A DNA stretch of 5,978 nt from Nitrospinae bacterium RIFCSPLOWO2_12_FULL_45_22. GTDB taxonomy: Bacteria; 2-12-FULL-45-22. The stretch lies in NCBI GenBank assembly GCA_001803565.1, contig MHDQ01000241.1:1-5978 (forward strand). Reading direction: 5' to 3'. The notes below the pieces were generated by a model, which saw only the letters and a list, made by a program, of their open reading frames with translations, ran no database searches and was not told where the DNA came from. The translations under genes were made by a program, and so were the position numbers. The stretch's first letter is position 1. Each line of letters starts with the position of its first letter. Of the stretch, positions 1,894 to 5,489 are shown one piece after another.

Positions 1894-2559
1894 ATGGTGC
1901 CAATTATTTCTATTGTAGGGAAGTCTGATAGCGGTAAGACCACTTTCATAGAAAAACTTATCGCGGAGCTAAACCGTAGAGGATATAGCGTAGCTACCAT
2001 AAAACACGATACCCACGGTTTTGAGATAGATCGGGAAGGTAAGGATACCTGGCGACATGCCCAGGCTGGCGCACTGTCTGTTATTATTTCCTCAAGGGAC
2101 AAGCTGGCCTTAATAAAGAGGGTTGAACAAGAGCTTTCGTTGGATGATTTATCCCGGCTGATAGAGGGTGTAGACCTGATCCTTACCGAGGGATACAAGC
2201 GGGCAAATAAACCCAAAATAGAAGTCCTGCGCACACAATTAGACCCTGAGCCACTTTGTAGCAAGACCGATAACTTATTGGCCCTGGTAGTAGATAAGAT
2301 AGATATAGACGAAGGTATTAAAGCCGGGGTTGGAGTACCTTGTTTTTATTGGGATGATGTGGCTGGGGTAGCCGATTATATAGAAAAAAAATATTTAGGG
2401 ACTTTGGACTCTAAACCCCAGGTTGAGTTGCGGGTAGATAGTGTTGATATACCCCTTACTCCTTTTGTCCAGAGTATAATAGAGAGGACCATCCGGGGTA
2501 TGATCTCTTCCCTGAAGGGTCTTACGGGACAGGGACGGATTGAGATAAAAATTTTTTAA
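1894..2559 (+). CDS. mobB: Molybdopterin-guanine dinucleotide biosynthesis protein B (MobB), with C-terminal extension
   Basis: P-loop GTPase expected to assist conversion of molybdopterin to its guanine dinucleotide form, or its delivery to target enzymes, in partnership with MobA. The 221-residue protein has Walker A GKSDSGKT at 9-16. The MobB hallmark region IKHDTHGFEIDREGKDTWRH is at 36-55, and DLILTEGYK at 94-102 carries the Walker B-like aspartate and the TEGYK signature. The MobB core ends near residue 165. A further segment (177-221) begins VELRVDSVDIPLTPF and continues through RTIRGMISSLKG; it is absent from short MobB proteins such as that of E. coli but I recall similar tails in anaerobes. 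The ATG at 1894 is supported by a strong Shine-Dalgarno site. Location downstream of the molybdate/tungstate transporter fits the role. The last 38 bp overlap the convergent gene on the other strand. No mobA is visible in the window. Confidence 0.9.
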   Translation: MVPIISIVGKSDSGKTTFIEKLIAELNRRGYSVATIKHDTHGFEIDREGKDTWRHAQAGALSVIISSRDKLALIKRVEQELSLDDLSRLIEGVDLILTEGYKRANKPKIEVLRTQLDPEPLCSKTDNLLALVVDKIDIDEGIKAGVGVPCFYWDDVAGVADYIEKKYLGTLDSKPQVELRVDSVDIPLTPFVQSIIERTIRGMISSLKGLTGQGRIEIKIF

Positions 2560-3910
2560 TCTTACCCAATTTTTCTTCTGCCTGTCGTAGCTCCTCTAAA
2601 CTCTCTAGAGGACGATAAACGGGCCTACCTATTTCATCGGTCTTATCCTGATATAGCTGCGGGTGTTTCTTTAACAGGCCGCCTAATATCCGGGCGATCT
2701 CTCGGCGTATAGCCTTATCGGCGGGGTCATTAGCTGGCTGGACCCTCTGCAGCTCAGAGCGGGCTTTTTTTGCCTCCCTCTGTAACTGCCTTATAAGGCT
2801 GAAGCCCAACTGGAATATCTTTTGCCACCTCACCTCCTTCAATATCTCTTTTCCTTTTGATACATCATCCCCGCATATATACTCTAAACCAATATTCAGG
2901 TAATGATGGCCTAGCTCAAAGGCCCTTCTTACCTCCTCCATCCGGGAAAAATCTATTACCTCGACCAACAAGACCTTATTAAACAAGACTATTAGTTCCT
3001 GTTGGCAGAGGGGGAAAATTGGGTCAGCTTGTAGATTAGCTAGCGATTCTATAAAAAAGGAATCTTTTACTATTGGCGAGAGATAAAATCGGGAAGAGAT
3101 AATAGCTTCGGTTGTTTCAGGAACAGAAACATCTTTATAAGCATAGTCCGACAGGGCCAGGGATTTTTTGTGTACCTGGGGATTAAAAGTATCAGGGTTT
3201 ATATACTGATATATTGCCGTTGCTTCATCTAATGGTGGGAACCCGGCATCCTCTAAGCGGGCTTGCCGCCAATGCCTGGCCTCCTCTTCCAGTCCCATAT
3301 TTAGTTCCCATATGACCCCTTCCATGATAGTAAAGTAGAGATGTTGATCTACCGGGAAAATCAGGTCTAGTATCTGATAAATCAACTCTTGGGCTTCAGC
3401 CGGGCCAATAAACTCTATAAAGTATTGATTATCCAGAGTAAAATAGAATTCCCTGGGTAGTCCTCCAAAGGCGGGGTCATCCGGGTTCGACGGATCATCT
3501 GGTTTTACAACTTTGATATGCCTCTTGAAGAAGTATATAATGAGCTCTGGATCGGCCTTTTGCAGCCAGGTGAGCAGTTTCCTTGGGCTGCATTCTCTCA
3601 ATGTTTTGATCCATTCCCTGACCTTATCCAGGTCTATCTCGTCCCGCTTCCAGCAGTCCAGGTCTAGCATAAAATTTATCTGCTCAAGGGAGGCCCGGGC
3701 AATAAGCTCTATAGCCCCTTCTTTGCCGAGTTCCTGGACTGCAAAGAATAGCTCTTGTTTAGGTAGGGCCCTTACTAGCCGGATGCGGTCTTCAGCCAGT
3801 TCTACCAAATCTAGCTTATCCTTAGCTGAGACCTGACACATTAGTTCCAGTCTGGCCTGGAAAGAAAGGCTGGTTATGAGTCCCCTTGCCCGTTCTGGGT
3901 CATCCTTCAT
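2522..3910 (-). CDS. DUF6178-type protein of unknown function
   Basis: Predicted soluble, mostly helical protein of 462 residues; no signal peptide or membrane segment is apparent. I recognise it as resembling the DUF6178 family from LVRALP (45-50), FMLDLDCW (80-87), the aromatic stretch EFYFTLDNQYFIEF (154-167), EGVIWEL (197-203) and EEEARHWRQARLEDAGFPP (208-226). The last 90 or so residues form a basic and then acidic helical tail. No enzymatic motif is evident and the function is unknown. The start is uncertain: the ATG at 3910 has no clear Shine-Dalgarno site, and the frame stays open upstream to a stop at 3995-3997 without an ATG, GTG or TTG. Start at 3910 is chosen because family-like sequence begins soon after it. 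It lies 211 bp downstream of the dehydratase-like gene on the same strand and overlaps the end of mobB by 38 bp on the opposite strand. Confidence 0.75.
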   Translation of the reverse strand: MKDDPERARGLITSLSFQARLELMCQVSAKDKLDLVELAEDRIRLVRALPKQELFFAVQELGKEGAIELIARASLEQINFMLDLDCWKRDEIDLDKVREWIKTLRECSPRKLLTWLQKADPELIIYFFKRHIKVVKPDDPSNPDDPAFGGLPREFYFTLDNQYFIEFIGPAEAQELIYQILDLIFPVDQHLYFTIMEGVIWELNMGLEEEARHWRQARLEDAGFPPLDEATAIYQYINPDTFNPQVHKKSLALSDYAYKDVSVPETTEAIISSRFYLSPIVKDSFFIESLANLQADPIFPLCQQELIVLFNKVLLVEVIDFSRMEEVRRAFELGHHYLNIGLEYICGDDVSKGKEILKEVRWQKIFQLGFSLIRQLQREAKKARSELQRVQPANDPADKAIRREIARILGGLLKKHPQLYQDKTDEIGRPVYRPLESLEELRQAEEKLGKIKKFLSQSVPVP

Positions 3911-3963
3911 TAAAGCGGCAATCGCCCGTTGGTTTTCTGGTTCCGTAGGAGACCACCCCCTTA

Positions 3964-4116
3964 GTAACAGTTCACGGGATTCAGTTAACAGGGCTCAGGA
4001 AAAGACTTCAAGTTAAAAGTGAGCCGTGAGCAGTAACTGCTAATTCCTTACTCCTCACTGCTCACGAAGGGAAAAGATTGCCTGACAACTGATCCCTGAC
4101 CCCTGTGAACTGTTAC
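3964..4116. repeat. Nested inverted-repeat element between the dehydratase-like and DUF6178-type genes
   Basis: The outer arms are 3964-3999 and 4081-4116. They begin with a perfect 12-bp match (GTAACAGTTCAC at 3964-3975 against GTGAACTGTTAC at 4105-4116) and match at 27 of 36 positions overall. An inner pair, CGTGAGCAGT (4025-4034) and ACTGCTCACG (4057-4066), matches perfectly over 10 bp, and GCAGTAACTGC (4030-4040) is itself palindromic. The arms are made of degenerate 7-9 bp units such as CTGACAA, CTGATCC and CTGACCC. The element fills most of the 211-bp intergenic gap (3911-4121), in which I see no gene. It contains no transposase and no clear target-site duplication. It could be a miniature mobile element, a REP-like structure or a transcript-end stabilising fold. 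Confidence 0.82.
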
Positions 4117-4121
4117 CCCCC

Positions 4122-5405
4122 TTACTTCTTCCGTTGGGCATCAAGCATATTAAAGAACTCTGTTATCCTACCTTTCATCTGGCTAATAGAAACTACCCGC
4201 TTGTCACAATAATCACCATCCAGGATAAGGGTAGGTACACCAACTTCTTCACTCATACAATCCCGTAATAGCCGGGTAAGGAGGGCCAGTTGCTTACAGG
4301 TAAAAGAGGCAAAGATAATAGAGGCATTAACCTGGCGCTCTTTAGCTGCCTGGACGATCTTGGGCCTGATATCTTCAAATTGCGAGCTGAGCAAGGTTAC
4401 CGGATAAGCCATATTTTTCCTTGCAACATACTCTACCGGGTCTTTGGGGTCACCAATGAGTTCTAAAGTGCCAAGAGTAGCCATATCAAAACCATCTTGT
4501 ACCGTAGTAGCTCCAAATTCCTTTGCCATCCAGTCAAATAAGCTCAGCTCAAAAAAAGGAAACCCTACCCACCATGCCAGGCGGTATCTTTCTTTGGCTG
4601 CTGCCCCTTGCTTATTAGCCACCCGAGAGGCCAGCTCAGCGCAATGGGCCTCCAGGAATCTACTGGCAGCTTCTGTACCAATACCCAGGACAATAATCTC
4701 CATATCCTTGAAATATTCTGCCATCGTCGCCGGTCCCGGCTCAGCCCCTTTTAACAGACTTATCTGATGCCAGTATTGTAATGTCTGCTTAGAACGTTCC
4801 ACAATCTCTTCCAGTTTATCATAGTTCATTTTATGTTTAGTATAGCCTTCAAGAGATCTGATCAAGTCCTTTATCTGGGCCTTATGATAGCTCACTCCTT
4901 CCTCAGAAAAGCCGTAGGGGCAGTCATAAGAAAATACTGGTATATGGCCCAATTCACCCATATGGTCTAACATCATATGGTTGCCCGTGCAATAAAGGTT
5001 AGTCACAGCAATCAGGTCAGGCGAAGGTAAGCTATTGGCGAGGGTCATACCCAGACGTAACCGTTCATAGGAGCAGATTTCTGATGGTACGCCATGACCC
5101 TTAGCCAGGTCATAAAACTCTTCACAGTCCCTAATGGCAGGAGTGATAAGGTTCAAGTGCCCTTGCATATAAGGGACTAAGTCCATCGCCAGGAATATCT
5201 CTGGCGAAGAGTAGATATTATAAAGGATTAATGGTTTGCCCTCCTCTTTTGCCTGAAGGATATTTTTATAATAATCCCGCAAAAAAGTAAAATAATGAAT
5301 ATCGCTCTTGGGAGCCGCGGGATTGGCCTGGGTACCCATAATCCCCAATTCGTATAACTGGATTAGTTGCTCCACCATGTTGCTTTCCTGTACTGTATTA
5401 ACCAT
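4122..5405 (-). CDS. 2-hydroxyacyl-CoA dehydratase / benzoyl-CoA reductase D-subunit family protein
   Basis: Iron-sulfur protein of the HgdB/FldC/BcrB superfamily, whose members carry a [4Fe-4S] cluster and use ATP-driven low-potential electrons for radical dehydration of 2-hydroxyacyl-CoAs or reduction of benzoyl-CoA; the double-cubane proteins are relatives. The protein has 427 residues from the ATG at 5405. Likely cluster ligands are C111 (ICSYERLRLG), C139 (NLYCTGN) and C370 (FTCKQ), the positions where the family has conserved cysteines. Other family-like features are the IPVFSYDCPYG segment (155-165), and the C-terminal GVPTLILDGDYCDKR (389-403) with GRITEFFNML (412-421). Eight cysteines are present in total. 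The ATG at 5405 follows a strong GGAGGGAG Shine-Dalgarno site; a GTG at 5474 would add 23 unlikely residues. Classical dehydratases need a second D-type subunit and an activator ATPase, and neither is in the window, so substrate and true reaction are unknown. Confidence 0.88.
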   Translation of the reverse strand: MVNTVQESNMVEQLIQLYELGIMGTQANPAAPKSDIHYFTFLRDYYKNILQAKEEGKPLILYNIYSSPEIFLAMDLVPYMQGHLNLITPAIRDCEEFYDLAKGHGVPSEICSYERLRLGMTLANSLPSPDLIAVTNLYCTGNHMMLDHMGELGHIPVFSYDCPYGFSEEGVSYHKAQIKDLIRSLEGYTKHKMNYDKLEEIVERSKQTLQYWHQISLLKGAEPGPATMAEYFKDMEIIVLGIGTEAASRFLEAHCAELASRVANKQGAAAKERYRLAWWVGFPFFELSLFDWMAKEFGATTVQDGFDMATLGTLELIGDPKDPVEYVARKNMAYPVTLLSSQFEDIRPKIVQAAKERQVNASIIFASFTCKQLALLTRLLRDCMSEEVGVPTLILDGDYCDKRVVSISQMKGRITEFFNMLDAQRKK

Positions 5406-5407
5406 GG

Positions 5408-5418
5408 TTGCTCCCTCC
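5408..5418 (-). promoter_or_regulatory. Shine-Dalgarno site of the dehydratase-like gene
   Basis: Read on the minus strand, a GGGAGGGAG tract ends about 5 bases before the ATG at 5405-5403. It decides the start codon against the in-frame GTG at 5474, which has no comparable site in front of it. Confidence 0.75.
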
Positions 5419-5473
5419 CTCTGCTGAAAAATTTTTCTCCCCGTCTCTATCTTGACCTTGCCCCATCTAACCA

Positions 5474-5489
5474 CACGGATTTATCCGTG
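5474..5489 (-). promoter_or_regulatory. Small perfect palindrome in the leader of the dehydratase-like gene
   Basis: CACGGATTTATCCGTG: 7-bp arms (5474-5480 and 5483-5489) around TT, or 6-bp arms with a 4-base loop in RNA. It lies about 14-29 bases after the predicted transcription start and well upstream of the ribosome binding site. It could be a repressor operator placed downstream of the promoter, or a 5'-stabilising RNA hairpin. No T-run follows, so it is not a terminator. Confidence 0.55.

Follow-up and report, generated by a model that had tools for sequence, protein, structure and literature searches.

Insertion sequences of the IS66 family are marked by ends that begin with GTAA and by 8-bp direct repeats (PMC11946415, PMC12888890). 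In the ISBst12 group of this family, which has a single ORF (tnpC) and includes ISDge4 and ISGst1, the tips are of the GTAAC type and the target duplications are 8 bp long; a member that has been seen to move is ISDge4, whose tip reads GTAACTGCTCAGCA and which duplicates 8 bp (PMC12898284). Bacterial MITEs such as MITEPsy1, MITEAba12 and Chunjie of Geobacter uraniireducens are short, non-coding elements with terminal inverted repeats and target duplications, and they occur in many, mostly intergenic copies of variable length (PMC3189936, PMC10969869). Small repeats which are nested in one another and are mainly intergenic have been described as the pneumococcal BOX, RUP and SPRITE clusters (PMC10969869).

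The element reported here resembles all three. It has the tips and the duplication length of the ISBst12 group, but it lacks a transposase and comprises only 153 bp as compared to about 1.6-2 kb, and no complete IS66 was seen to carry precisely its tip, GTAACAGTTCAC. It has the general build of the bacterial MITEs, but its tips are different, its parent is of the IS66 type, its long arms consist of degenerate units of 7-8 bp and its cores are exchangeable. The nesting of small repeats is reminiscent of BOX, RUP and SPRITE, to which it is unrelated in sequence, ends and host.

The window, which is the whole stretch of DNA that was analysed (5,978 nucleotides), corresponds to the complete contig 241 of Nitrospinae bacterium RIFCSPLOWO2_12_FULL_45_22, for which an incomplete genome is available (321 contigs, 3.67 Mb, 85% complete). 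The original prediction, made from the sequence of the window, had described a 153-bp nested inverted repeat at 3964-4116, and this was borne out: 27 of the 36 end positions are complementary, with the outer 12 being perfect, and a repeat search returned arms of 39 nt with 74% complementarity. The second, perfect 10-bp inverted repeat (CGTGAGCAGT at 4025-4034 and ACTGCTCACG at 4057-4066) and the local palindrome GCAGT-A-ACTGC (GCAGTAACTGC, 4030-4040) could both be located between the arms as described. We also agree that the repeat is not a product of chance, because first-order Markov shuffling of the element, repeated 100,000 times, never reached the value of 27/36 and because its single-strand fold (-59.9 kcal/mol) is 5.3 standard deviations below that of dinucleotide shuffles (-39.5 +/- 3.9 kcal/mol). 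Folding is strong in both orientations (z -5.3 and z -3.4). The element is gene-free, as had been stated, with no ORF of at least 80 aa in its 153 bp, and it fills the gap between two genes which are both encoded on the minus strand.

On both sides, the element is directly abutted by a perfect 8-bp direct repeat, CCCCCTTA, which had escaped the original prediction (Table 1). The distance to the HGD-D gene is 5 bp, and the TAA stop codon of this gene is part of the target duplication. With the element, the gap between HGD-D and DUF6178 is 211 bp, and it is 50 bp once the element and one copy of the duplication are removed. The window copy would thus have been inserted at the HGD-D stop codon, widening the gap from about 50 bp to 211 bp, and the allele before insertion would read ...gaccaCCCCCTTActtctt... 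without the element. No orthologous empty site was available for comparison: by tblastn, the DUF6178 homologues elsewhere are distant (23-25% identity), and HGD-D is not among their neighbours in the loci examined.

Table 1 Features of the element and its surroundings, given as positions in the window.
Feature	Position	Strand	Remarks
DUF6178 (PF19676)	2522..3910	-	flanking gene
Left target-site duplication CCCCCTTA	3956..3963	.	identical to 4117-4124
Whole MITE copy	3964..4116	+	153 bp, no ORF; based on family alignment and 8-bp duplication
Left tip GTAACAGTTCAC	3964..3975	+	perfect inverted repeat of right tip; IS66/ISBst12-type end
Left arm	3964..4002	+	common to other family copies
Replaced core; palindrome AGTGAGCCGTGAGCAGTAACTGC...CTCACTGCTCACG	4018..4066	+	also central in repeats with other arms
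Right arm	4078..4116	+	common to other family copies
Right tip GTGAACTGTTAC	4105..4116	+	perfect inverted repeat of left tip
Right target-site duplication CCCCCTTA	4117..4124	.	final three bases are the HGD-D stop codon (TAA, minus strand)
HGD-D, 2-hydroxyglutaryl-CoA dehydratase D-component family, PF06050 (2-hydroxyacyl-CoA dehydratase-type)	4122..5474	-	flanking gene

A search of the source genome for further copies, as had been suggested, found many. BLAST with the 153-bp element resulted in 89 matches throughout the genome, many of them pieces, while a 159-bp consensus gave 49 matches, about 15 of which are near full length (73-93% identity). Standard copies have 143-183 bp and follow the pattern GTAACAGTTCACGGGGTTCAGTTAACAGGGTTCAGGAAAAGACTTTAAATTTT ... 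CTGACAACTGATCCCTGACCCCTGTGAACTGTTAC; shorter and longer variants range from 63 to 228 bp. We assembled 42 elements from the own genome by pairing ends in loci without regard to their flanks. An exact 8-bp direct repeat flanks 14 of these and another 5 match at 7 of 8 positions, while exact repeats of 9 bp or more were found for none of the 42; offset controls with the same elements (four offsets) never reached even a 6/8 match. An exact pattern scan of the genomes of other species gave an equivalent picture: 6 of 16 elements have an exact duplication at 8 bp, 5 more match at 7/8, and none has 9 bp or more. No copies were detected in the one other genome of the phylum that was examined (genus to phylum level).

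Copies with the core of the window family and with 81-86% identity to the consensus were encountered in loci L066, L070 and L078 as well as L169 and L180, the hosts being Deltaproteobacteria bacterium CG_4_8_14_3_um_filter_43_13 and a relative of that genome. Their occurrence in a differently labelled metagenomic genome suggests either a kinship concealed by naming or horizontal spread.

These data establish directly that the copies are dispersed, that their ends are defined and that they are flanked by 8-bp duplications. The element is short (153 bp, below about 300 bp), has terminal inverted repeats and a duplication of fixed length, lacks a transposase gene and is present in multiple dispersed copies: it is a MITE. 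A non-autonomous mobile element had been among the proposals of the original prediction, which expected the arms of such an element to covary between copies and named a unique element devoid of covariation as the contrary finding. The element is far from unique, but covariation is indeed nearly absent, with a kept double change in 1 of 28 pairs. The case for mobility therefore rests on the ends and the duplications and not on covarying arms.

The position of the elements relative to genes was analysed for the 32 elements with a duplication of at least 7/8, using ORFs of at least 80 aa as a rough proxy for genes. Of 28 neighbouring 3′ gene ends, 13 are located within 10 bp of an element, while this holds for only 1 of the 31 5′ ends next to an element (Fisher p 1e-4, with a 10-bp cut-off that was chosen after the distances had been seen). 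The relative position within the intergenic gap is not significantly biased (KS p 0.37, Wilcoxon p 0.92), and thus selection against insertions near gene starts suffices to explain the pattern. In 3 of the 32 elements, a reading frame terminates with the TAA that is contained in the tip (G-TAA-C), and copies with less good duplications provide more examples; the stop codon thus seems to come from the MITE itself. The loci concerned are L002, L012 and L093 (also L020 and L032).

This proximity to gene ends bears on a different reading, according to which the element is kept as a long hairpin that serves as mRNA 3′-end structure or as stability element for the HGD-D transcript. The strong folding in both orientations, the location 5 bp past the HGD-D stop codon and the enrichment at gene 3′ ends, subject to its post hoc cut-off, would fit. 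However, folding is common to any inverted-repeat transposon, and the position has the explanation given above. No G+C-rich hairpin followed by a T run occurs on either strand inside 3964-4116, which leaves the proposed mRNA 3′-end structure without a terminator-like site; the window has no match to an Rfam family, and compensatory change in the arms is too rare to mark a structured RNA. With neither a terminator-like site nor appreciable covariation of paired positions in its favour, an RNA role is unsupported although possible, and we consider retention as a hairpin to be very improbable. A secondary effect of the MITE is possible. The palindromic, mostly intergenic and dispersed nature of the element might also recall REP/REPIN-type palindromes or a site bound by a nucleoid or repair protein instead of a transposon. 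REP/REPIN are short palindromes which are spread by a Y1 (RAYT) transposase without target duplication. Terminal inverted repeats of fixed sequence and exact 8-bp duplications, as found for the copies of the element, are not REP features; the duplications strongly disfavour the REP reading, and we regard either alternative to a transposon as hardly credible.

If the element is a MITE, the question arises to which family its ends belong. The length of the duplication by itself cannot single out IS66, and other insertion sequence families with 8-bp duplications (e.g. IS1595, ISL3 or IS256) have to be considered. The tips of IS1595, ISL3 and IS256 are not known to begin with GTAA, which is how the tips GTAACAGTTCAC of the element start. 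As a control, 11 public plasmid-borne single-ORF IS66 loci were searched for inverted repeats of any kind that enclose the gene and have a duplication of at least 7/8, without assuming an end sequence. In 8 of the 11, the top result was an inverted repeat starting with GTA and having a perfect 8-bp duplication; L167 was a ninth case, in which a repeat of this kind tied for the top. Several IS66 ends come near to the MITE tip, namely those from Nostoc (GTAACCGTTCACAGG), Thiodictyon (GTAACCGTTTAGCC) and ISGst1 (GTAACTATTCAGCC). The only IS66 transposase gene of the own genome is a partial tnpC with the left tip GTAACCGTTCACCC located 133 bp before the ORF; the fragment begins with GTAACCGTTCAC, and its tip is identical to the MITE tip in 11 of 12 bases. 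The tips thus fit independently annotated single-ORF IS66 elements as well as the IS66 fragment of the own genome, and this makes an origin from another family very improbable, although the search for a complete autonomous partner sharing the exact tips was negative.

Between the tips there is no gene, and hence no single tnpC-type DDE transposase, so that the element can only be an IS66 derivative and not an IS66 element itself. Searches for a complete autonomous element that ends in GTAACAGTTCAC tips were negative, and the loci examined contain no pair of GTAACAG ends that are 0.4-4.5 kb apart and have a duplication of at least 7/8. Such tips are also absent from the vicinity of IS66 genes in Magnetocorallium and in other carriers, and viral contigs contain no relative of the transposase. 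In locus L061 (888-2923), the partial IS66 tnpC with the left tip GTAACCGTTCACCC is followed by a run of N, an apparently unrelated gene, which we read as an HD-type gene, and a complete MITE at 2724-2923, which is flanked by the duplication AAGAAAGA. The junction has probably arisen as an artefact of scaffolding at a repeat; the right end of this IS66 fragment is lost because the scaffold enters the assembly gap. The assignment of the MITE to the IS66/ISBst12 type, which is based on sequence comparison, is strong but not closed. As a whole, a MITE with IS66 (ISBst12-group) type ends and an 8-bp duplication is very probably the best explanation.

The core palindrome of the window copy (about 4018-4066) recurs in central position in L009, L016 and L022, with 93-98% identity over 42-43 bp and with other arms. 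As judged from these alignments, the window copy is a chimera which combines the arms of its family with a replaced middle. Other copies (L012, L028 and L030) have other extra interior segments. The core could have been exchanged by recombination between hairpins or by insertion of a second small element. A palindromic segment of the CAGGCAG / GGCAGACAGG type is found inside MITEs of two groups (L012:1501-1683 and L061:2724-2923), as if still smaller palindromes enter the interior of MITEs.

Tips of this kind are not restricted to the window family. With up to two mismatches, GTAACCGTTCACCC occurs 165 times in the own genome as compared to 14 occurrences of the reversed control. A second set of MITEs has GTAACCGTTCA tips, several of them with perfect 8-bp duplications, and differs in the interior (CACCAAGGCACTAAGT type, GTCATTCTGAG type); these are located in L128, L129, L131, L144, L148, L151 and others. 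Locus L152, which has an interior of the CACAGAGAACGCAGAG type, is not surrounded by a duplication. Tips of GTAAGCGTTCAGC, which are even nearer to canonical IS66, also occur in the own genome. In L011 and L131, loci that also carry MITEs of these groups, there are two more HGD-D homologues with about 30% identity, which may be a coincidence. The window itself contains a second inverted repeat at 1801-1877 (CAGCTATCAGCCGTAAGCTTTCAGCT ... AGCTGAACGCTGATAGCTGAGTGCTGAACGCTTAT), directly after an ABC transporter gene. Reading from the right end of this repeat inwards gives ATAAGCGTTCAGC, which is close to the canonical IS66 end GTAAGCG; pieces related to the repeat exist in L005 and L011, and no 8-bp duplication was found around it. 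We consider it possible, though somewhat short of probable, that the CTGAACCC, CACCAAGGCACTAAGT, GTCATTCTGAG and, less surely, CACAGAGAACGCAGAG types of palindromic intergenic repeats, which occur in uncultured bacteria, consist of degenerate units of 7-8 bp and look unrelated to one another, represent one superfamily of ISBst12-type MITEs. Its members would have only GTAAC-N-GTTCA tips and 8-bp duplications in common, would swap palindromic cores and would come to rest at the 3′ ends of genes, where the host gene can take its stop codon from the TAA of the tip.

The ISBst12-type ends are directly observed. A transposase would recognise the GTAAC-N-GTTCAC tips, and the element would enter by a staggered cut of 8 bp, repair of which would create the duplication. 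At some point, the core was swapped for a palindrome that is common to other repeats of the genome. We infer the act of transposition, as well as the identity of the transposase and the choice between copy-paste and cut-paste. The element can be explained without any host function, and such a function is unproven.

As a kind of element, MITEs are already known. The papers searched, all from the open literature, do not appear to describe the family, its link to IS66 or its occurrence in several uncultured lineages, and they contained no description of IS66-derived MITEs. The analysis turns a class of odd intergenic palindromes in metagenome-assembled genomes into transposons with identifiable ends and ties them to ISBst12, a branch of IS66 that has been little studied. 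The bias towards the 3′ ends of genes, together with the reuse of the TAA of the tip as a stop codon, provides a simple and testable account of how such elements may persist in compact genomes.
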